From the NCBI GenBank assembly GCA_018053185.1, contig JAGPLX010000004.1:1-64000 (forward strand): 64,000 bases of DNA, read 5' to 3'. Shown here piece after piece: positions 320-11,257 of the stretch. This DNA is from Syntrophobacteraceae bacterium. Its GTDB lineage: Bacteria; Desulfobacterota; Syntrophobacteria; Syntrophobacterales; Syntrophobacteraceae. The notes beneath the pieces were generated by a model. The model had not been told where the DNA came from. It saw nothing but the letters and a program-made list of their open reading frames with translations, and did no database searches. The position numbers and the translations under genes were made by a program. Position 1 is the first letter of the stretch. Each line of letters opens with the position of its first letter.

Positions 320-2374
320 ATGAAGATCCTTCTTGTTTTTCCTCCGTTTTATCTGGAACCCATGTACAGCCTTCCTCCTCTCGGACTGCTCAACCTTGCC
401 ACTATCCTTAAAAGCAGCCCTCACCAGACTACAATTCTCGACTTCCCCCTGGCCATCCGAAAGGGCCTCATCCGTCTGGATTCCACCATCTACGAGCAGT
501 GTGCATCGAGGATCCTCGAGGAAGAACCGGACCTTGTGGGCTTTTCCGTTCAATGCACCACCTATCCACCCTCCGTCCAGATCGCCAGGATCGTCAAGAA
601 ACGGCAATCCCGGATCCGGATCGTTTTCGGGGGACACAACGCCACCTTTGTAGACAAGCGAACATTGATGTTCTTCCCCTGGATCGACGCCATCGTCCGG
701 GGGGAAGGCGAAATCACATTTCCCGAGCTTGTGGCCGCCTATGATCGGGGTGAGGACGGAAAGGGAGTCCGCGGAGTTACCTATCGGAATCGAAAGACCG
801 GAGACGTGGTGAGAAATCGTGACCGGGATCTCCTGATGCGTCTCGATGAACTCCCTATTGCCGACTATCGCCTGCTGCCGCCCCTTTCCGAATACCGCGA
901 TGCCTGCAATATCCGCCGAAGCATTGCCATTCTCGAGGTCGGCAGAGGCTGTCCCCACCGCTGTGTGTATTGTTCACAGTCCCTCGTCTGGCGTCGCAAA
1001 ACCCGCACCTTCTCCGTGGACCGCATTATCGGGGAGATTCGGCACCTTCATGAGGATTTCGGTGCCCAGTGTTTTCTCCTCGCCTACGACCAGTTTACCG
1101 CGCGGAGAAGCTATGTGGAGGAGTTCTGCCGTCGAATGGTCGAGGAGCATCTGAACCACATCCCTTGGTACTGCATCTCGAGGTTGGACGGCGTGGACGC
1201 CATCCTGCTTCGAACCATGAGAAGAGCTGGTTGCGAATCCATGTGCTACGGAATTGATTCAGGTTCCAAGAAGACTCTGGCTTTCATCCACAAAGATATC
1301 GATGAGGCCATTCTTCACCAGAGGGTGCGGGAGACGACCGATGAGGAGATCATCCCGACCCTCAGTTTTGTCATCGGTTTTCCCGAAGAAGAACGGGCGG
1401 ATCTGGATGCAACCCTGGTCCTGGCTTTGAAAACCGGAATGCTCGGAACCAGCCATCCCCTGATCCAAATGGCGACGATCCTGCCTGGAACCGAGCTCTA
1501 CCGGCGCCATTCCCATCTGCTGATTCGTGAAGTGGATACCTATTTCTCCCTGGGCATCGAGTTCGACGGAGGCAGACGTCTTCAGGCCGATGAAGACTTG
1601 ATCAACTCGGATCCTCTCCTTTTCAGCAGTTTCTACAATCTCCCGTGCCCTGCAAGGTCCCTAAAGGAGCTGAACCTCATCGCATTTTTTTTCCCGCTGA
1701 TGGTCGCTTACTTCCCCAGGGCCTTTTGGATCCTGACCCATGAACTGGAGGAATCGGCCTCGGATCTTTTCCTCCATTGGATGTTCTGGCTGCAATGCCA
1801 CCTCGGCAGAAGTGAACCGTCTCTTTCCCCTCAAGATTGCTACCGGTACTTTCGCGACTACGCAAAAGGCAGGATCCGGCAAAGAAGGAGGATTCGTTTT
1901 CTCCACATCAACGATGTGTTGGAATATGAACAGTCGAGTATCGAGGTGGGGAAATTCTTTTCACATCCAGCAGGCAATTTCGCCATGGATATCCACGGGA
2001 TTCACGTTTCAAACCCTCGACGCACCGCACAGGTCCTCCTTAAAGAGTTCACATTTCCCATGACGGATATTATTATGGATCTAAAAAAGGGGGTAGTTCG
2101 GATCTCGTATGCTCCCCAAAAGACCTTTCTTGTTTTTCGGCAGAAGGGGGACCGTCTGGACGTAAAAGAAATCAACCAGTTCGGAAGGGATTTGCTTACC
2201 CTGTGCGACGGGACCCATTCCGTTCTCGATATTCGCGAGAAGCTGTATCCCGTCCATGGAAAGGATCACAGCCGGGACCATTTCACGGTTCTCTGTGTCG
2301 ATGCGATCCGGATGTTGGGAGAGATGGGAATCCTTCATGAGGGATCGCTCGATTATCCCGACGAAAGGAGGTGA
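320..2374 (+). CDS. Cobalamin-binding radical SAM enzyme with C-terminal PqqD-like domain
   Basis: A 684-residue protein if started at ATG 320, which gives the canonical B12-binding opening MKILLVFPPFYLEP; the frame is open from 209, but that 37-residue extension is low complexity. Residues 1-170 look like a B12-binding Rossmann domain with a VGFSVQC strand and an FGGHNATF loop. The radical SAM cluster is C211-x3-C215-x2-C218 (GCPHRCVYC). Residues about 590-684 resemble a PqqD/RiPP recognition domain: NQFGRDLLTLCDG, a VLDIREKL helix, then MLGEMGIL. The stop codon lies inside the Shine-Dalgarno (SD) of the 31-codon gene that follows, so the two are translationally linked. B12-dependent radical SAM enzymes perform methylations or difficult C-C chemistry, and PqqD-like domains bind leader peptides. 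A peptide-modifying role is inferred. Confidence 0.85.
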   Translation: MKILLVFPPFYLEPMYSLPPLGLLNLATILKSSPHQTTILDFPLAIRKGLIRLDSTIYEQCASRILEEEPDLVGFSVQCTTYPPSVQIARIVKKRQSRIRIVFGGHNATFVDKRTLMFFPWIDAIVRGEGEITFPELVAAYDRGEDGKGVRGVTYRNRKTGDVVRNRDRDLLMRLDELPIADYRLLPPLSEYRDACNIRRSIAILEVGRGCPHRCVYCSQSLVWRRKTRTFSVDRIIGEIRHLHEDFGAQCFLLAYDQFTARRSYVEEFCRRMVEEHLNHIPWYCISRLDGVDAILLRTMRRAGCESMCYGIDSGSKKTLAFIHKDIDEAILHQRVRETTDEEIIPTLSFVIGFPEEERADLDATLVLALKTGMLGTSHPLIQMATILPGTELYRRHSHLLIREVDTYFSLGIEFDGGRRLQADEDLINSDPLLFSSFYNLPCPARSLKELNLIAFFFPLMVAYFPRAFWILTHELEESASDLFLHWMFWLQCHLGRSEPSLSPQDCYRYFRDYAKGRIRQRRRIRFLHINDVLEYEQSSIEVGKFFSHPAGNFAMDIHGIHVSNPRRTAQVLLKEFTFPMTDIIMDLKKGVVRISYAPQKTFLVFRQKGDRLDVKEINQFGRDLLTLCDGTHSVLDIREKLYPVHGKDHSRDHFTVLCVDAIRMLGEMGILHEGSLDYPDERR

Positions 2375-2379
2375 AGGGG

Positions 2380-2475
2380 ATGCTGAAGGTGAAGGAAGTG
2401 GAGAACAAGGTGCTGTATACGGATGTATGCCATGAATCTTCGGATCAGGCATCCGCATGTCATGTCCCTACCTGA
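2380..2475 (+). CDS. 31-residue putative RiPP precursor peptide
   Basis: ATG 2380 sits 5 bp after the radical SAM stop, behind a near-perfect SD (AAAGGAGGTG). The product begins MLKVKEVENKVLYTD and ends in a polar core containing C17-H18 and C27-H28, with residues ESSDQASA between them and VPT at the C-terminus. A charged, helix-prone N-terminal half followed by a short core with repeated Cys-His and Ser/Thr is the layout expected of a precursor for a radical SAM peptide maturase, and the upstream enzyme carries a PqqD-like leader-binding domain. No homologue is recognised. The strong SD, exact spacing and codon-perfect short frame argue for translation; the substrate role is inferred from context. 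Confidence 0.6.
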   Translation: MLKVKEVENKVLYTDVCHESSDQASACHVPT

Positions 2476-2489
2476 CATGCACCGACGGA

Positions 2490-2506
2490 ATCTCCGGTAC
2501 GGAGAT
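2490..2506 (+). other. Hairpin between peptide gene and dipeptidase gene
   Basis: A perfect inverted repeat ATCTCCG-GTA-CGGAGAT starts 14 bp after the peptide stop codon. It lacks a T-tract, so it is not a standard intrinsic terminator. Its position after a short, well-translated peptide gene would suit an mRNA-stabilising or partial-termination structure that sets the ratio of peptide to downstream dipeptidase mRNA. Confidence 0.4.
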
Positions 2507-2580
2507 AGGGATGAGGTAACAGCAAACGAGGCGGGGTGAGGGGCCGGGATTCCTCATCCCACTTCCCTCAAAGGATCTGG

Positions 2581-3540
2581 ATGCAAATGCTTTCTTCCCC
2601 CCAATCCATCCCTATTGTGGATGGTCACGTGGACATCCTCTTCGAGCTAAGGGAAAACCACCCTGGAAAGACGTTCCGTGAGATCACGTCGGGCAGTGTC
2701 ACCCTCGGGAATTTGATCCGAGGGAATGTCCGGGTCATTGTTTCGGCCATTTACTGTGCCGACCAATATAACGGCGAAGGCTCGTCGGCAAACCATTTCA
2801 AAGAGTTGGTTGACTACGCTCAGGAGCATCTGGACGGCCTCATTCCCCTTCGCACGTCTCAGGAACTCCTGTCTGCATATGAATCCGGCGGACAGCAACC
2901 GGCAACCCTGTTCCTGCTGGAAAACGCCGACGCGCTGGTGGATTTGGATGTCACGGAACTGGATGCCTTGGCCATCCGCGTGGTGGGATTGACTCATGCG
3001 GGAAAAAATCGGATCGGGGATGGCAATGGAATCTTTCTTCCCGGGGGACTAACACGGGAAGGGAAAAGGGTCATCCAGAGGCTTCGGGAGGTTGGATGGG
3101 CCGTAGACGTGGCCCATTTGTCCGATCCCTGCTTCTGGGAGCTCATGGACCTCTTCGACGGCCCTCTCGTGGCCTCCCACACAGGCTTCCGGTTCTTCTG
3201 CGACACCCCGAGGAATCTCACCAAGGATCAGGTTCGAACCTTGGTGGAACGCCGGGCAGTCATCGGGATTTCTGTGAATTCGGAGATGCTCTCGATTGGA
3301 AGACAAGCCGACGAAGAGGATGTTTTCCGACACATCGATTGGATGGTTCAATCCTTCGGGTGCGGTTTCGTCGCACTGGGCTCGGACTATTGTGGTTCCT
3401 TTTTCGTAGCGGAGGGGTTGGAGGACATCTCGAGACTATCTGTTCTCGCAGACCGCATGGTACGGGATGGTTACCCTCCGGAAGCAGTCCGAGCTGTCAT
3501 GGGAGGCAACTGGGTCCGCATTTACTCGAATCTGTTTTAA
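2581..3540 (+). CDS. M19-family membrane-type dipeptidase
   Basis: A 319-residue zinc dipeptidase. The chosen start, ATG 2581, has AAAGGA 5 bp upstream; a GTG at 2536 would add 15 residues. The M19 ligand set is complete: H16-x-D18 in VDGHVD, E114 in LLENADAL, H179 in DVAHLSD, H200 in ASHTGFRF, and D269 in LGSDYCG. The family cleaves dipeptides and tolerates a D-residue at the C-terminal position. No signal peptide is visible, so it should be cytoplasmic. It lies 105 bp after the 31-codon peptide gene on the same strand, so it could trim leader remnants or products of that peptide. That link is inference; a housekeeping dipeptidase role is equally possible. Confidence 0.9.
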   Translation: MQMLSSPQSIPIVDGHVDILFELRENHPGKTFREITSGSVTLGNLIRGNVRVIVSAIYCADQYNGEGSSANHFKELVDYAQEHLDGLIPLRTSQELLSAYESGGQQPATLFLLENADALVDLDVTELDALAIRVVGLTHAGKNRIGDGNGIFLPGGLTREGKRVIQRLREVGWAVDVAHLSDPCFWELMDLFDGPLVASHTGFRFFCDTPRNLTKDQVRTLVERRAVIGISVNSEMLSIGRQADEEDVFRHIDWMVQSFGCGFVALGSDYCGSFFVAEGLEDISRLSVLADRMVRDGYPPEAVRAVMGGNWVRIYSNLF

Positions 3541-4171: not shown

Positions 4172-4190
4172 TGGGGTGGTTGGTTGGGGG
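4172..4190 (+). other. G-rich, potential two-tetrad G-quadruplex upstream of the mraZ promoter
   Basis: The stretch contains four or more guanine tracts (TGGGGTGGTTGGTTGGGGG) and ends 10 bp before the -35 hexamer of the dcw promoter. The loop lengths of 1-2 nt fit a two-layer quadruplex. This is a sequence pattern only; no function is shown. Confidence 0.35.
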
Positions 4191-4200
4191 CAATTTGAAT

Positions 4201-4229
4201 TTGACAATGGAAAAAAGGCCGTGTTAAAT
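4201..4229 (+). promoter_or_regulatory. Sigma-70 promoter of the dcw cluster
   Basis: TTGACA at 4201-4206 and TTAAAT at 4224-4229 are separated by exactly 17 bp. Transcription would start near 4236. That rules out an in-frame upstream initiation codon at 4176 for mraZ and supports the GTG at 4269. Confidence 0.75.
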
Positions 4230-4239
4230 GACCCGTCAG

Positions 4240-4274
4240 TGGCGGAAAGTGGGAAGAAAGGGTCAAAAGTGGTT
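4240..4274 (+). promoter_or_regulatory. 10-bp-phased MraZ-type operator repeats
   Basis: TGGCG (4240), TGGGA (4250), GGGTC (4260) and TGGTT (4270) recur every 10 bp with 5-bp spacers, the arrangement known for MraZ boxes (TGGGN repeated with 5-bp spacers). They lie between the predicted transcription start and the mraZ start codon, so autorepression by MraZ is the natural reading. Only the second repeat matches the consensus exactly. Confidence 0.5.
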
Positions 4275-4730
4275 ACCTTGGAAAAGTCCTACTTCAGAGG
4301 TCAATCCATTGCGCGCCTCGATGCCAAGGGTCGGCTACGAGTTCCTACGAAATTCCGCGATGTCTTGCAGGTCCGCCAGTCGGATGCTCTCATCATTACT
4401 CGGCTGGACAAGTGCCTGGTGGCATATCCCATCGATTATTGGCAGCAAATCGAGAACAAGGTCCTCGGTCTCTCCCAAATTCAACCGCAACATCGAACCT
4501 TCATTCGCCACTTCATCTCAGGGGCTGAGGAATGCGAATTTGATGGTCAGGGAAGAATCCTGATTCCACCGCTCCTTCGAGAAAAGGTCCAGCTCGGGCA
4601 GGAGGTGCTCCTGGCCGGTATGCTTTCCAGCTTTGAAATTTGGAACAGGGATGCCTGGGAAAAGCACAGCGAGTGGGGCAGCGATCATTTTCTGGAAATC
4701 GCCTTAGACATTGCCAACACTGGTTTCTGA
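4269..4730 (+). CDS. mraZ: Transcriptional regulator MraZ
   Basis: A 153-residue product from GTG 4269, which has GAAAGGG 6 bp upstream and lies just downstream of the predicted transcription start. MraZ is a ring-forming DNA-binding protein built from two AbrB-like halves, each marked by a D-x-x-G-R motif. Both are present: DAKGRLRVPTKFRD near residue 19 and DGQGRILIPPLLRE near residue 93. It heads the division and cell-wall operon and normally represses its own promoter; phased repeats in front fit this. The reading frame stays open upstream to 4176, but that extension precedes the promoter. Confidence 0.92.
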   Translation: MVTLEKSYFRGQSIARLDAKGRLRVPTKFRDVLQVRQSDALIITRLDKCLVAYPIDYWQQIENKVLGLSQIQPQHRTFIRHFISGAEECEFDGQGRILIPPLLREKVQLGQEVLLAGMLSSFEIWNRDAWEKHSEWGSDHFLEIALDIANTGF

Positions 4731-4737
4731 TCCGGCA

Positions 4738-5682
4738 ATGAGAACTCTGGCTCCACCTCACCATGTCCCGGTTCTTCTGGATGCGGCCATTGGACTCCTG
4801 GGATGTCGAGCGGGCGGGCTCTATGTGGATGGAACCCTGGGGGGCGGAGGCTACACCGGCGAGATCCTTCGGAGGACAGCCCCCGATGGTCTCGTTTTGG
4901 GGCTGGATTGGGACGAGGAAGCCATCGAGCGGGTTCGGGAGCAGTTTCCACACGATCCGAGGTTGTTGCTTCGACGGGCCAGTTTTTCAGACCTTCATGC
5001 CATTTTGGAGGAAATGCAGTGGGAGCCTGTCGACGGAATCGTCGTCGACTTGGGTGTGTCAACGTTTCAACTGGCCGATCCCCACCGGGGATTCAGCTTT
5101 CTTCAGGAAGGGCCCCTGGACATGCGTATGGACCTCCGACTTTCGCAGACTGCGGCTGACTTGGTCAATGCCCTTCCGCAGGACGATTTGTCAAACTTGA
5201 TTTTCCGGTTGGGGGAAGAAAAATGGGCCCGACGTATTGCTCGGGCCATCGTGAGCCGTCGGCGCCGGAAGCCGTTCACGGGAACAGTGGAACTTGCCGC
5301 GGTCATTCAGGAGGTGGTTCCGCCCACAAGGGATACTTTCAGGATTCATCCGGCTACTCGGACCTTTCAAGCGCTGCGTATGGCGGTGAATCGAGAATTG
5401 GAGGCCCTGGACGCATTCCTTTCCCAGGTGCTGGAGGATTTGAGGCCGGGTGGGAGACTGTGCGTGGTGTCGTTTCACTCCCTGGAAGACCGCATGGTCA
5501 AGGACCGATTTCGATCCTGGGCGATGTCCTGCCGGTGTCCCGAAGGTTTGCCCGTGTGCCGGTGTCAAGGGAAGCCTCTGGCAAAGATTCTCACCAGAAA
5601 AGCTGTTCGGCCGGATGCTGGGGAAATCGAACGGAACCCTAGGGCTCGCAGCGCCAGGCTGCGGGCTGTGGAAAAAGTTTGA
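4738..5682 (+). CDS. rsmH: 16S rRNA (cytosine-1402-N4)-methyltransferase RsmH
   Basis: 314 residues from ATG 4738, 7 bp after the mraZ stop. RsmH (MraW) methylates N4 of C1402 in the ribosomal P site. The SAM-binding segment DGTLGGGGYTGEIL is near residue 31, and the family blocks VDLGVSTFQLADPHRGFSF, RTFQALRMAVNREL and VVSFHSLEDRMVKD are all intact. It is the normal second gene of dcw clusters. A TTG start 27 bp upstream would overlap mraZ and is not needed. Confidence 0.96.
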   Translation: MRTLAPPHHVPVLLDAAIGLLGCRAGGLYVDGTLGGGGYTGEILRRTAPDGLVLGLDWDEEAIERVREQFPHDPRLLLRRASFSDLHAILEEMQWEPVDGIVVDLGVSTFQLADPHRGFSFLQEGPLDMRMDLRLSQTAADLVNALPQDDLSNLIFRLGEEKWARRIARAIVSRRRRKPFTGTVELAAVIQEVVPPTRDTFRIHPATRTFQALRMAVNRELEALDAFLSQVLEDLRPGGRLCVVSFHSLEDRMVKDRFRSWAMSCRCPEGLPVCRCQGKPLAKILTRKAVRPDAGEIERNPRARSARLRAVEKV

Positions 5683-5693
5683 GGGAGGAAGCC

Positions 5694-6023
5694 ATGCACA
5701 CTCTGACCATCAAGGCTGGATTGGTGAGCCAGGACAAAGCCGAATCGCATGGAGGGCTCTGGAAATGGCTCGTGGTGGTGGGAACCCTGGCTACGGTGTT
5801 TGCCTGTGCGGCGGTGTTTTACGTGTGGCTCACCGTCGAGCGGGTGCAAAACGGCTATCGTCTGGCAAAACTTCATGACGAATATGAGCAGCTGCTTTCG
5901 GTCCAGAGGAAGTTGCGAGTGGAATGGGTGCGGCTCCAGGACCCGTTTTACATGGAAGAGGTGGGTCGCATGCAATTGGGGTTATGTCCACCCAAGCCGG
6001 ATCAGAAAATCACTCTGCGTTGA
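5694..6023 (+). CDS. ftsL: Cell division protein FtsL
   Basis: 109 residues from ATG 5694, with GGGAGGA ideally spaced. A short cytoplasmic tail leads into one transmembrane helix (LWKWLVVVGTLATVFACAA, about residues 18-40), then a periplasmic coiled-coil-like segment rich in L, V and charged residues. FtsL bridges FtsQ/B to FtsW/FtsI at the septum. The family is poorly conserved, so the call rests on topology, size and its place between rsmH and ftsI. About 220 bp without a recognisable gene separate it from ftsI. Confidence 0.85.
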   Translation: MHTLTIKAGLVSQDKAESHGGLWKWLVVVGTLATVFACAAVFYVWLTVERVQNGYRLAKLHDEYEQLLSVQRKLRVEWVRLQDPFYMEEVGRMQLGLCPPKPDQKITLR

Positions 6024-6244
6024 TGTTCGAAAAAGGCATGAAATTCTGTGGGCAGGTTCTGCTTGGTCGTGATCCCCGGAAACGACGCCGGACGAGAAAG
6101 TTTGGGGAAAACTCTGGGTGCTCGACCCAATACCACGACTGCCTGACCGGGCCAATCGGTTCCACCCCATGGATGCCATCGCCCAGGGGAGCGGAAAGCG
6201 CCTGCGGTTCAAGAGGGCAGGGCGCTGACAGGGAGTGATGAAGA

Positions 6245-8224
6245 ATGGACGCACGGAACGGCAGGAACTTTCTGAACGCTCGATACTGGTCCTGTCATGC
6301 GTTCTGTAAAATTCTCATTGTTTCCGTCCTGGGTCTCATCCTTCTCAAGGCGCTGCGATTGCAGCTATGGGAACACCAAGTGTGGCTTCAAAGGGAACGG
6401 GCTCAGATCGAGACGACTTTCCAGGTTCCCACCTACCGGGGTTCCATCTACGACCGGCAGGGGAGGCTTCTAGCCTACTCTGTACCGCAGCATTCCGTGT
6501 ACGCCGACAGCGAGGTCGTGGAAAACCCCAGGCAATTGGCGAACCGGCTGGCCCCCATTTTGGAGGAGCCGGAAGCTTCTCTGGAAAAGAAGTTGTCCAG
6601 CGGGCGGAAGTTCGTTTGGTTGAAACGGCACATCACGGATCAACAGGCCTTCGCTATCGAGAGGCTGCGGGCCAGAGGACTCAACCTCATCGAGGAGTAC
6701 CGGCGTTTTTATCCTTTTCGGCAGATTGCAGGTCATGTGATTGGTTTTGTGGGAAAGGACGGCGTGGGACTCGAGGGAATAGAAAAGTCTTTTGATCGGG
6801 TCTTGCGTCAAGGAACAACCACCTTCGTCCAGCAAAGGGACGGTGTCCGGAAGTACCTGTGGCTGAATGCGGAAGCCCCGCCCGAAGTGAAGGAGAGTTT
6901 CGGGGTCACGCTCACCATCGACGCCTATATCCAGTATCTTTGCGAAAGCGAACTGGAGAAGTGCATTCAGAAGTACCGGGCGGCTTCAGGGGAGGTGGTG
7001 GTGATGGACCCAAACACTTTCGAAATCTTGGCCATGGCCAACTGGCCTTCCTTCGATCCAAATCTCGATGGGAAAAGGGACGCCGACACCTGGCGGAACC
7101 GATCCATCACCGATTTTTTCGAGCCCGGTTCCACCTTCAAGGTCTTTCTCGTGGGCGCGGCCCTGGAGGAGGGACGCATTCGGGAGAAAGATCGGGTTTT
7201 CTGCGAAAATGGAAAGTGTGTTCTGGCGGGCCACATGATCAAGGACGTGCACCCTTACGGATGGCTCACCATCCCTGAGGTGATCAAGCATTCCAGCAAC
7301 ATTGCGGCGGGAAAACTAGCCCTGCAGCTTGGTCGGGAGCAGTATTATCGATACATCAAGGGTTTCGGATTCGGCTCCCGCACCGGGATCGAGCTCCCTG
7401 GGGAAGCCAGGGGTCTGGTGCGCAACTGGAAAAAGTGGCGTCCCATCGATCTTGCCACCACGGGCTTCGGCCAGAGCGTTGGAGTGACCGCCCTGCAGCT
7501 AACCTCGGCCATTGCCTGCATCGCCAACGGGGGAGAGTGGAACCCTGCCCGGGTGATCCAGGGGATCGTGGACAACAGGGGGGATCCCACCGAACCCCTG
7601 AGAACCAAAGGCCCTCGGCGTGCCATTCAACCGAAGACGGCGCAACAGATTCGTGATATGATGCGCAGCGTGACTGAAGAGGGTGGTACCGGAGTGAAAG
7701 CGGCTCCCGAAGGATATTCGGTGGCAGGAAAGACCGGCACGGCACAGATGCAGGACCCCGTCACGAAGCGCTATGCTTCCAACAAATATACCTCGCTGTT
7801 TACCGGATTTGCTCCTGTAGAGAAGCCTCGTGTGGTCATCAGCGTGGTCATTCATGAGCCCCACGGCGCCATTTATGGAGGTGTGGTTGCCGCCCCTGTT
7901 TTCAAGAATATTGCAGCGAAGGCTCTGCCGTATCTGGGAGTGCAGCCCTCCCCCGTTGGAACCGGCAACGCGCCGGGGCTGAAGCTCGTGAAAACGCTCC
8001 AGAAGGAATCTTCCGGGCCGACTCCCTCGACGGACAACAAAACGACGGCCAAAATGCCCGATGTTTCGGGTCTGAGTCTTCAAAAGGCCCTCCAGCGACT
8101 GGCTCCTCTGGACGCTCAAGTGAAGCTGCGAGGCCGAGGAACGGTGGTGAGCCAGTCTCCTCGGGTGGGTGCGCCATTGAAACCCAAGGAAACCGTGGAA
8201 TTGGTGCTCAACGAGGCGCACTGA
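6245..8224 (+). CDS. ftsI: Septal peptidoglycan transpeptidase FtsI (PBP3) with a PASTA domain
   Basis: 659 residues. One N-terminal membrane helix (about 17-38) is followed by the dimerisation domain and the penicillin-binding transpeptidase domain: S296 in GSTFK (S-x-x-K), S350-x-N352 in HSSNIAAG, and K496-T-G in AGKTGTAQ. A single PASTA repeat occupies roughly residues 600-657, starting MPDVSGLSLQKAL. FtsI crosslinks septal peptidoglycan as partner of FtsW, encoded further down the same cluster. The PASTA tail is absent from E. coli FtsI but common in Desulfobacterota and Firmicutes. Confidence 0.95.
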   Translation: MDARNGRNFLNARYWSCHAFCKILIVSVLGLILLKALRLQLWEHQVWLQRERAQIETTFQVPTYRGSIYDRQGRLLAYSVPQHSVYADSEVVENPRQLANRLAPILEEPEASLEKKLSSGRKFVWLKRHITDQQAFAIERLRARGLNLIEEYRRFYPFRQIAGHVIGFVGKDGVGLEGIEKSFDRVLRQGTTTFVQQRDGVRKYLWLNAEAPPEVKESFGVTLTIDAYIQYLCESELEKCIQKYRAASGEVVVMDPNTFEILAMANWPSFDPNLDGKRDADTWRNRSITDFFEPGSTFKVFLVGAALEEGRIREKDRVFCENGKCVLAGHMIKDVHPYGWLTIPEVIKHSSNIAAGKLALQLGREQYYRYIKGFGFGSRTGIELPGEARGLVRNWKKWRPIDLATTGFGQSVGVTALQLTSAIACIANGGEWNPARVIQGIVDNRGDPTEPLRTKGPRRAIQPKTAQQIRDMMRSVTEEGGTGVKAAPEGYSVAGKTGTAQMQDPVTKRYASNKYTSLFTGFAPVEKPRVVISVVIHEPHGAIYGGVVAAPVFKNIAAKALPYLGVQPSPVGTGNAPGLKLVKTLQKESSGPTPSTDNKTTAKMPDVSGLSLQKALQRLAPLDAQVKLRGRGTVVSQSPRVGAPLKPKETVELVLNEAH

Positions 8225-8287
8225 TATGATCCCCGTTTACAAGGTATTTGCGGTCCATCTATCCATCTACAGGTGGGGTTCCGGTAA

Positions 8288-9841
8288 ATGAACAGAAATG
8301 GAATGGGTAAGACTCTCAGTTGTTTGTTGAAGGGGCTGGACGTCCTGGAGGCCGAGGGAAAGGAGGGCATTTTCATCGAGGGGCTTTCCTACGACAGTCG
8401 GCGGGTGGGGAAGGGAGACCTGTTTGTGGCCCTTCGAGGAACTCGCCTGGATGGAAGAGCCTTTATTCGGGATGCCGTCCAGCGGGGAGCCCGTGCCGTG
8501 GTGGCTGAATCCGCCCCTGAAAACGGATTCACTGTCCCCTGGGTGCGGGTGGCTGATAGCCGCAAGGCTCTGGCCCATCTTGCGACGAATTTTTTTGAAG
8601 ACCCGTCTCGAGATCTGACCCTTATCGGAGTGACGGGCACCAACGGAAAGACCACGACGACCTTGCTCCTGGAGGGAATTCTCCGCCGGATGGGTCATTT
8701 CGTCGGTGTCGTCGGAACCTTGGGATATTGTTGGGTCGGAGTTCGAAAAACGGCTGCCATGACCACCCCCGAATCCCTGGATCTCCAGCGTCTTTTCCAC
8801 GAGATGAGAGTGGACGGGGTCACTCATGTAGTCATGGAGGTTTCGTCTCATGCCCTGGCCATGGGCAGGGTCGAGGGGTGTTCCTTCAAAGGAGCGGTCT
8901 TCACGAACCTCTCCCAGGATCACCTGGATTTTCACGGCGACATGGAGAAGTACTTCGCAGCCAAGTCCCTGCTTTTTTCGAGATTTCTCGGGTCGCCAGG
9001 AGGAGAGCGTGGGACGGCGGTCGTCAATCTGGACGATCATTTTGGTAAACGCCTTGCCGAATCCATTCGGGGTGAGGTCTGGACCTACTCCCTTCATAAC
9101 TCTAAAGCTCGAGTCCGGGTCCAGGAAGCCGATTTTGGAACTGGGGGCATTCGAGCGAAACTGGCCGTTCCCGGTGGAATCATGCGGGTGGAATCACCGT
9201 TGCTGGGACGATTGAACTTGTATAATGTCGTGGCGGCGGCTTCAACAGCTCTTTCCCTAGGCATTCCACCCGAAGCCGTTCCGGACGGTTTGGCTGCGAT
9301 CCATGCCGTGGACGGACGCCTCCAGAGAGTGCCTGTTCCCGAGGAGTTCGGCTTTCAGGTGGTGGTGGACTACGCCCACACTCCCGACGCCATGGACAAA
9401 GCCCTCGGCTGCCTGCGGGAAATGATGACATGCGGGCGTCTTCTGGCGGTTTTCGGATGCGGTGGAGATCGAGATCGAGGAAAGCGTCCTCTTATGGGCG
9501 GAACCGCAGCCAGGTGGGCCGACCTGGTGGTGGTGACCAGCGACAATCCCAGGAGTGAAGATCCCGAGGGAATCATCCGGGAAATCGAGCCCGGTGTCTA
9601 TGCGGAAGGTATGCCGTATTTGGAACCGGACAGGGAAAGTTTGCCCGCCAGGGGATACTCGGTGGTTCCGGATCGCAGGGAGGCCATCGAGCTGGCTTTG
9701 TCCTGGGCCCGTCCGGGAGATGTCGTCTTCATCGGGGGGAAAGGCCACGAGACGTATCAGATAATGGGTAACAATGTTCTCCCCTTCGACGACAAGGTGG
9801 TGGTCCGGGAATTCCTGGCCGCACACAGACCGGCTTCCTAG
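8288..9841 (+). CDS. murE: UDP-MurNAc-L-Ala-D-Glu:meso-DAP ligase MurE
   Basis: 517 residues. MurE adds the third stem residue to the UDP-linked precursor in the cytoplasm. The ATP-binding loop GVTGTNGKTTTT has its lysine at 121. The substrate-selecting motif is D419-N-P-R in DNPRSEDP, the form that reads meso-diaminopimelate rather than lysine, implying mDAP-type peptidoglycan. The SD is weak and 63 bp separate it from ftsI. Length is typical of the family. Confidence 0.96.
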   Translation: MNRNGMGKTLSCLLKGLDVLEAEGKEGIFIEGLSYDSRRVGKGDLFVALRGTRLDGRAFIRDAVQRGARAVVAESAPENGFTVPWVRVADSRKALAHLATNFFEDPSRDLTLIGVTGTNGKTTTTLLLEGILRRMGHFVGVVGTLGYCWVGVRKTAAMTTPESLDLQRLFHEMRVDGVTHVVMEVSSHALAMGRVEGCSFKGAVFTNLSQDHLDFHGDMEKYFAAKSLLFSRFLGSPGGERGTAVVNLDDHFGKRLAESIRGEVWTYSLHNSKARVRVQEADFGTGGIRAKLAVPGGIMRVESPLLGRLNLYNVVAAASTALSLGIPPEAVPDGLAAIHAVDGRLQRVPVPEEFGFQVVVDYAHTPDAMDKALGCLREMMTCGRLLAVFGCGGDRDRGKRPLMGGTAARWADLVVVTSDNPRSEDPEGIIREIEPGVYAEGMPYLEPDRESLPARGYSVVPDRREAIELALSWARPGDVVFIGGKGHETYQIMGNNVLPFDDKVVVREFLAAHRPAS

Positions 9842-9850
9842 CCCGACAGG

Positions 9851-11257
9851 ATGTGTACGACGATGAGTTGGACGAGATCAGCCGTTTTGGAAGCCACCCG
9901 AGGTACACTCCTGCAGGGTTCCCCTGAAGGAGCCGTCGCGAGGATTTCCACCGATACTCGTCGGATTGGGCTGGGGGATGCCTTTGTTGCTCTGCGCGGG
10001 GACAACCACGACGCCCATGGTTTCCTGGAAAGTGCGGTGGAAAAAGGTGCCGGTACCCTTGTGGTCTCCCGACCCAGGAGGGAGTGGTCTGCAGATGTTC
10101 CCGCTCATGTGACCGTGATCCAGGTGCCGGACACCCTCGTGGCTCTCGGAGATCTCGCCCGATATCATCGGCTCCGGTTCACCATTCCCGTGGTGGGCAT
10201 CACAGGCAGCAACGGCAAAACCAGTACCAAGGAAATGGTGTCCGCCATCCTCAGCCAACGAAACAGGGTTCTCAAGAACCAGGGGAACTTCAATAACCTC
10301 GTTGGAGTTCCCCTTACACTTTTGTCTATGGAACCGGAACACGAGATTGCCGTGGTCGAAATGGGGATCAATGTTCCCGGCGAGATGGAACGCCTGGTCC
10401 GCATGGCCGTGCCGACAGCGGGGATCATCACCAATATTCACCCGGCGCACTTGGAGGGCCTTGGCTCGTTGGATCGGATTCTCGATGAAAAGGGAAAGCT
10501 TATCTCGAGTCTCGGACCGCAGGGCGTTGCCGCTATCAACCTGGACGATGAACTTTTGGAGCGATTCTCGAAAACCCTCGAAGCCGGGCTTGTGACCTAT
10601 TCCCTTCACAGAACCGAAGCCATGGTGGTCCTGGCCGGTCCCGTCGAAGTGAACGAAGGAGTCAGCATCTTTCCTGTGAATTTTGGAAAGGAAACTCTCC
10701 GGGTACGGCTCCCGGTTCTGGGAATGCATCAGGTCCAAAACGCCCTGGCCGCAGCTGCCCTTGCGTGGTCTCTGGGAGAGTCCCCCCAGGCTATAGCCGA
10801 AGGGCTTTCCCTGCATCAACCGGTAAAGCAGCGCATGCAGAGGCACCTGCTGGAGGGGGGGAGGATCCTCATTGACGACACCTACAACGCCAATCCCAAA
10901 TCTGTGCTCGCTTCGGTGCGGGCAGTCCTCACCGCAAGTTCCGGGAAACCCGTAGTGGCAGTCCTCGGTGAGATGAGGGAGTTGGGACCCCGAAGCGCCG
11001 CTCTCCATTACGAAGTCGGGCATCAAGTGGGGAGCTTGGGTGTCCGTTATCTGATCACCATGGGAGAACTTGGACGGGAAATCCAGCGGGGCGCCAGGGA
11101 TGCCGGCTTGGCACCGTCCTCCTGTTTTCATGCCCAAACGCATGAAGAGGCCATCGAACGTCTCAGGGACCGAATGCCCGAGGAGGCATGGATTGTGGTG
11201 AAGGGGTCCAGGGGAATGACCATGGAACGAGTCGTCGAGAGGATGGTTGTCCAATGA
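9851..11257 (+). CDS. murF: UDP-MurNAc-tripeptide:D-Ala-D-Ala ligase MurF
   Basis: 468 residues starting 9 bp after murE. MurF completes the pentapeptide by adding D-Ala-D-Ala. The Mur-ligase ATP loop GITGSNGKTSTKEM lies near residues 116-129, and the family blocks NNLVGVPLTLL and DDTYNANPKS are present. An ATG at 9863 is an alternative start. Its stop codon overlaps the murD start as ATGA, so mraY, which usually lies between these genes, is absent here. Confidence 0.95.
   Translation: MCTTMSWTRSAVLEATRGTLLQGSPEGAVARISTDTRRIGLGDAFVALRGDNHDAHGFLESAVEKGAGTLVVSRPRREWSADVPAHVTVIQVPDTLVALGDLARYHRLRFTIPVVGITGSNGKTSTKEMVSAILSQRNRVLKNQGNFNNLVGVPLTLLSMEPEHEIAVVEMGINVPGEMERLVRMAVPTAGIITNIHPAHLEGLGSLDRILDEKGKLISSLGPQGVAAINLDDELLERFSKTLEAGLVTYSLHRTEAMVVLAGPVEVNEGVSIFPVNFGKETLRVRLPVLGMHQVQNALAAAALAWSLGESPQAIAEGLSLHQPVKQRMQRHLLEGGRILIDDTYNANPKSVLASVRAVLTASSGKPVVAVLGEMRELGPRSAALHYEVGHQVGSLGVRYLITMGELGREIQRGARDAGLAPSSCFHAQTHEEAIERLRDRMPEEAWIVVKGSRGMTMERVVERMVVQ

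Follow-up and report, generated by a model that had tools for sequence, protein, structure and literature searches.

What is made by a compact three-gene cassette that begins with a B12-dependent radical S-adenosylmethionine (SAM) enzyme is the question raised by contig JAGPLX010000004.1 of a Syntrophobacteraceae bacterium (GenBank assembly GCA_018053185.1), of which positions 1 to 64,000 were analysed as one stretch (hereafter the window). The enzyme (320..2374), a 31-residue peptide (2380..2475) and an M19 dipeptidase (2581..3540) are encoded on the forward strand in that order. The sequence-only reading had proposed a peptide-maturation pathway in which the peptide is the substrate and the dipeptidase trims it. 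Comparison with 29 other genomes carrying a relative of the enzyme (30 genomes with that of the window) strongly supports, from sequence conservation, a cassette of the ribosomally synthesised and post-translationally modified peptide (RiPP) type with the 31-mer as the enzyme's putative substrate. As to its product, the window may carry a derived version of a RiPP-like pathway that builds ovothiol A or a close thiohistidine on a peptide scaffold, a reading to which we give just short of an even chance.

The precursor peptide and its enzyme

A hidden Markov model (HMM) built from the peptides of 27 relatives, with that of the window left out, recovered the window 31-mer (MLKVKEVENKVLYTDVCHESSDQASACHVPT) at E=7e-14, while the next best of the 1033 open reading frames (ORFs) in the window reached E=0.57; a chance ORF was rejected on this result. 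The peptide has no match in Pfam or NCBIfam. Homologous peptides were found just behind the enzyme by tblastn of the 31-mer over the relatives' loci, and a precursor stands at the enzyme locus in 28 of the 30 genomes; none was found at loci L002 and L033, the genome of the latter (G024) having one elsewhere. The enzyme's TGA (2372-2374) forms the last three bases of a full-length Shine-Dalgarno sequence (AAGGAGGTGA, 2365..2374), followed 5 bases on by the ATG (2380) of the 31-codon gene, and a strong ribosome-binding site of the form AAGGAGGTGA or AGGAGGTGA precedes most enzyme-linked precursors, as expected of strongly translated genes. Among the precursors of the 28 genomes the leader (about residues 1-15, 2380-2424) is conserved, with the consensus ML-x-[VI]-K-x-[VI]-E-K-K and MLKVKEVEKK in the window, and the core (about residues 16-31, 2425-2472) varies. 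A short precursor gene with a conserved leader and a distinct core beside a modifying enzyme is the arrangement expected of a RiPP.

The enzyme (684 amino acids and a stop codon, ATG at 320) contains a cobalamin-binding domain (residues 16-138, 365..733; PF02310, E=6.5e-16) and a radical SAM core (residues 206-366, 935..1417; PF04055, E=8.7e-15) with the cluster C211-x3-C215-x2-C218 (950-973), invariant in 19 relatives. With both the cobalamin domain and the CxxxCxxC core it belongs to the B12-dependent radical SAM enzymes; its closest relatives are 50-75% identical, and the full-length AlphaFold model (predicted local distance difference test, pLDDT, 88) matches TsrM, MgmA, AprD4, OxsB, TokK and CysS. 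Genes for an amino-acid-type ATP-binding cassette (ABC) importer were observed upstream of the enzyme at loci L029 and L031-L035, immediately so at L032 and L034.

The C-terminal 187 amino acids (residues 498-684, 1811..2371) form an ApyI/HvfC/TglI-like region. The ApyI model (NF050149) was matched here by 19 of 19 relatives, the PqqD Pfam family by 14-15 and HvfC by 13; the region scores below the NF050149 cut-off, and the domain of the window enzyme itself is named with confidence by no family library. The AlphaFold model of these residues (pLDDT 86) has the beta-beta-alpha-alpha-alpha winged helix of a RiPP recognition element (RRE; about residues 600-676, 2117-2347). The best Foldseek matches were TglI of TglHI (8hci, E=7.5e-5) and NGO1945/HvfC (3dee, E=3.9e-4), followed by lasso B1 proteins with bound leader (6jx3, template modelling score 0.80 of the target); the C-terminal profile by itself had drawn only chance matches from PDB sequences, and the fold search was needed. 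The structural model strongly supports a predicted leader-binding RRE at the end of the enzyme, and pairing of this element with the precursor leader is likewise strongly supported as a prediction.

The overlap of stop codon and Shine-Dalgarno sequence, the B12-binding start with its C-x3-C-x2-C cluster, the PqqD-like C-terminal segment and the dipeptidase downstream on the same strand had all been read from the letters beforehand, and each stood up to this comparison. That reading had also staked its proposal on a short frame beside homologues of the enzyme, on conservation of that frame at the peptide level and on a C-terminal segment that models as a PqqD-type winged helix; the 28 of 30 loci, the shared leader recovered by the HMM and the modelled RRE fold bear out all three.

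Cys-His cores and partner enzymes

Three types of core were observed: (S/A)CHAP repeats of 4 to 9 units in most lineages; degenerate Cys-His cores in the window and in genomes G001, G003 and G005; and Cys-free cores, such as AVDEAPTTYVVPT, in genus g6. The two pairs in the window are Cys17-His18 (2428..2433) and Cys27-His28 (2458..2463), the second lying in CHVPT, the counterpart of CHAP. All 96 Cys residues in the 28 precursors are directly followed by His, and apart from these pairs no core chemistry is conserved. Synonymous differences occur among the repeat codons with C, H and P unchanged, and selection therefore acts on the peptide. Where Cys has been lost, the C-terminal His position is still aromatic (H/Y/F), as in SH, RH, IH, TY and TF. 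At one locus (L035:10109 and 10579, genome G021) two precursors were seen, one with spaced CHAP units and one Cys-free.

A DNA pattern of two CHAP units was found in 11 genomes of a phylum sample of 395, exactly at the precursor beside the enzyme in 10 of them and in a second precursor with the same leader in the eleventh (G006), while the reversed pattern, used as a control, occurred in 0 of 395. By a profile search, six g6 genomes proved to have an additional, unlinked CHAP precursor; that of G006 contains two Cys with no His after them, the only exceptions seen. The unlinked precursors at L182, L183, L188 and L189 (g6) lie directly behind genes for a 2-hydroxyacyl-CoA dehydratase-like protein and its activator ATPase, with another dehydratase-like gene after the precursor at L183, L188 and L189. 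Behind the unlinked CHAP precursor at L190:1477-2924 (reverse-complement coordinates, G025) come two genes that by eye are HAD-like and YedF-like (selenium metabolism). Long CHAP/CQTP pentapeptide repeats on two IMG/VR contigs (L169:11414-11850 and L170:1243-1510) have no leader, and no enzyme in the stretches examined; given this other context they were set aside as probably unrelated.

The next gene behind the precursor, at 12 of 13 CHAP loci, codes for a methyltransferase of 312 residues with a Trm112 domain at its N terminus. The best PDB matches of its profile were OvsM (1e-31), OvoA (4e-31) and OvoM (2e-29), with the next methyltransferase at 4e-11; of these solved relatives, OvsM is a 5-selenohistidine N-methyltransferase and OvoM a 5-thiohistidine N-methyltransferase. 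TIGR04345, the model for the OvoA/OvoM 5-thiohistidine N-methyltransferase, was matched by all 12 linked proteins (best E 7.8e-33). In Syntrophobacteraceae, the window included, the gene is not at the locus but elsewhere in the genome (on another contig in the window genome, G000:C8:1261-2199); the most telling partner, seen beside the relatives' precursors, thus lies outside the window and is invisible from it alone. The methyltransferase is present in 13 of 13 enzyme-bearing genomes of the phylum sample compared with 32 of 382 others (Fisher 1e-13, kinship uncorrected), and within the family in 15 of 15 genomes with the enzyme compared with 4 of 11 without it (kinship again uncorrected). Linked and unlinked copies were not separated in a methyltransferase tree, and no orthology is therefore claimed. 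No precursors were found beside the unlinked methyltransferases, most of which adjoin a molybdopterin oxidoreductase and others a CysQ-like phosphatase. About a dozen phylum genomes without the B12 enzyme carry the former pair, the Trm112-OvoM-like gene being followed directly by an oxidoreductase of about 690-735 amino acids at L134-L136, L138-L141 and L143-L148; this is possibly another anaerobic route sharing the final step.

A class-V aminotransferase-like pyridoxal phosphate (PLP) enzyme (PF00266, the superfamily of EgtE) is encoded in 15 of 26 enzyme genomes (E<1e-138), with none of comparable strength in 7 family members without the B12 enzyme, and its gene is convergent to that of the M19 protein in seven genomes of several families. 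The OvoA sulfoxide synthase domain (TIGR04344) was over its cut-off in 0 of 19 genomes tested (best 135 against 400 bits).

The third gene encodes a protein of 319 amino acids with the Peptidase_M19 domain (PF01244, E=4.3e-56) and the metal-binding motifs GHVD, LLENADA, VAH, SHTG and GSD, which place it in Peptidase M19; no signal peptide is visible. Its ORF is open from GTG 2536, but ATG 2581 is the likely start because homology to the relatives begins there. The gene adjoins the cassette in 20 of 30 genomes, and several of the remaining loci stop at a contig end. The closest solved structures belong to the renal-dipeptidase family, among them GliJ, which acts on S-substituted Cys-Gly ahead of a PLP C-S lyase in gliotoxin biosynthesis; by this GliJ/GliI logic an M19 dipeptidase and a PLP C-S lyase generate a thiol from an S-linked Cys dipeptide. 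The peptide keeps its proposed place as substrate in the three-gene pathway, and the trimming role given to the dipeptidase falls on enzyme class, since removing the leader of a 31-mer is beyond a dipeptidase; the better reading is that it hydrolyses a modified dipeptide once this has been released.

A proposed thiohistidine route weighed against its rivals

Taken together, the invariant Cys-His pairing and three partners (OvoM-like methyltransferase, dipeptidase and PLP enzyme) are consistent with synthesis of a thiohistidine on a peptide scaffold. In such a route the RRE would bind the leader MLKVKEVEKK and the B12-radical SAM core would join the sulfur of each Cys to a carbon in the imidazole ring of the adjacent His, giving a thioether (-2 Da per Cys-His unit). 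Cellular proteases would then cut the modified core, the M19 enzyme would hydrolyse the S-linked Cys-His dipeptide, the class-V PLP enzyme or a housekeeping beta-lyase would break the C-S bond to give 5-thiohistidine, and the Trm112-OvoM-like methyltransferase would N-methylate it. Ovothiol A or a close thiohistidine would result, formed without the O2-dependent sulfoxide synthase OvoA. There is precedent for thioether formation by a B12-radical SAM enzyme in ThnL (PMC13331322). Ovothiol synthesis as known proceeds through OvoA, OvoB and the methyltransferase domain of OvoA (PMC12631010). That these genomes encode an anaerobic, ribosomally templated thiohistidine route, one molecule per repeat, in place of the O2-dependent OvoA reaction is a tentative proposal, somewhat below an even chance.

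In the enzyme tree (rooted by midpoint) the 15 Syntrophobacteraceae proteins, that of the window included, group in a single clade (support 97), and the CHAP enzymes fall outside it. Most simply read, the combination of CHAP, methyltransferase and M19 came first, and the window shows a version derived from it in which two Cys-His pairs are left. Since the methyltransferase gene of the window genome lies on a different contig and this genome yielded no close homologue of the PLP enzyme, the end product there may stop earlier or differ.

Besides that missing PLP homologue, several observations weigh against a thiohistidine route. The linked methyltransferase does not reach the TIGR04345 cut-off (98 bits for the first member, against 170), its family also stands beside the molybdopterin oxidoreductase in genomes without the enzyme, and one exception, G041, has CHAP repeats but no such methyltransferase. 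The genome counts are not phylogenetically independent, and the PLP gene, where linked, is on the opposite strand. Enzyme-adjacent precursors are Cys-free (TTYVVPT) across most of genus g6; the unlinked CHAP precursors in six g6 genomes weaken the objection that this genus lost its Cys-His substrate, and four g6 genomes show no second CHAP precursor. Methylation is the reaction of most B12-radical SAM enzymes. ApyD, the nearest relative to have been characterised, methylates the Tyr C-beta to give beta-methyltyrosine (PMC11117315).

The last two points lead to the chief rival of thioether formation, in which the enzyme, like ApyD, would C-methylate an unactivated or aromatic-side-chain carbon of His (or of Tyr/Phe in g6), the product being a C-methylated peptide or amino acid whose imidazole the OvoM-like enzyme would N-methylate. 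ApyD (NF050148) is the closest family model (E=6e-72), and the aromatic residue that persists at the C-terminal His position of Cys-free cores is consistent with such a target. However, the match covers residues 19-443 only and reaches 242.9 bits against a curated cut-off of 750, and C-methylation leaves unexplained both the constant His after Cys and the co-occurrence of a 5-thiohistidine-type methyltransferase and a PLP enzyme. We regard it as unlikely, though a serious contender.

A metal-binding modified peptide (cf. bufferins, methanobactin) is improbable. The Cys-His repeats would chelate Cu, Zn or Ni, with the B12 enzyme and methyltransferase tuning the ligands and M19 merely degrading leader remains, and the variable number of Cys-His-rich repeats, the relation of the RRE region to HvfC of the bufferin pathway and the importer genes upstream in several genomes all suit such a peptide. 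The surroundings of the cassettes showed neither a signal peptide nor an exporter or metal-regulation gene, however, and the dipeptidase, OvoM-like and PLP enzymes better suit release of a small molecule than a long peptide product.

More improbable still is a shift of the degenerate Syntrophobacteraceae copies, the window included, to another product (leader still bound, a different residue modified, M19 kept), which would agree with their single clade, degenerate cores, unlinked methyltransferase and, in the window genome, absent PLP enzyme, but sits poorly with the two Cys-His pairs and the methyltransferase that this core and genome retain and with the CHAP precursors still present at L035 in G021 and elsewhere in the six g6 genomes.

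Known systems and genomic setting

The locus was compared with known systems. Aminopyruvatide biosynthesis shares an RRE-bearing B12-radical SAM enzyme, ApyD, acting on a ribosomal precursor (PMC11117315), and the C-terminal region here is ApyI-like; it differs in leader and core (a C-terminal YLYD there, the Cys-His repeat here), and no P450, ApyS or multinuclear non-haem iron-dependent oxidative enzyme (MNIO) gene was found at the locus here. No MNIO (ApyH) stands next to the window cassette, and none was recognised among the relatives' neighbours examined. Membership of this system was rejected, as the cut-offs of NF050148 and NF050149 are not reached. In 3-thiaglutamate biosynthesis by TglHI (PMC9016710), a ribosomal peptide likewise serves as scaffold for a small thiol amino acid, and its RRE partner, TglI, is what the C-terminal domain here matches best in structure; that system uses MNIO chemistry and a tRNA-added Cys in contrast to the B12-radical SAM enzyme and encoded Cys-His repeats of this one.

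With ovothiol biosynthesis by OvoA and OvoB the locus shares a methyltransferase of the OvoA C-terminal/OvoM/OvsM kind, Cys and His as inputs and a PLP enzyme as candidate C-S lyase, whereas here the 19 genomes have no OvoA sulfoxide synthase over cut-off, Cys-His lies within a ribosomal peptide and the methyltransferase carries a fused Trm112 zinc domain. The dipeptidase and C-S lyase logic shared with gliotoxin belongs there to a fungal, glutathione-derived, non-ribosomal pathway. CefA, the Cys-every-fifth RiPP (NF038108), also has Cys at each fifth residue; membership was rejected, the best CHAP precursor scoring 21.3 bits (up to 21-22) against a cut-off of 30, and the leader of the one over-cut-off CefA member is dissimilar.

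The cassette immediately precedes the dcw cell-division and cell-wall cluster (4176-11257; mraZ, mraW, ftsL, ftsI, murE and murF by appearance), with which no functional link was seen. A gene tail at the contig start (2-136) appears ArsA/GET3-like, by eye only. A promoter and terminator scan gave scores not above those of shuffled sequences.

The sequence-only reading had not recognised the combination as a described RiPP class. ApyD already joins a B12-radical SAM enzyme and an RRE on a precursor, and that combination is therefore not new; no description of the precursor family, of a Cys-His repeat RiPP scaffold or of an ovothiol-type partner was found in the literature searched, nor any O2-independent route to 5-thiohistidines (most subscription journals, where a description may exist, lay outside the coverage). 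If the thiohistidine route is true, it would link a primary-metabolite-like antioxidant to RiPP logic, add a new radical C-S reaction on imidazole and explain the puzzling Trm112-OvoM methyltransferase family of anaerobes.

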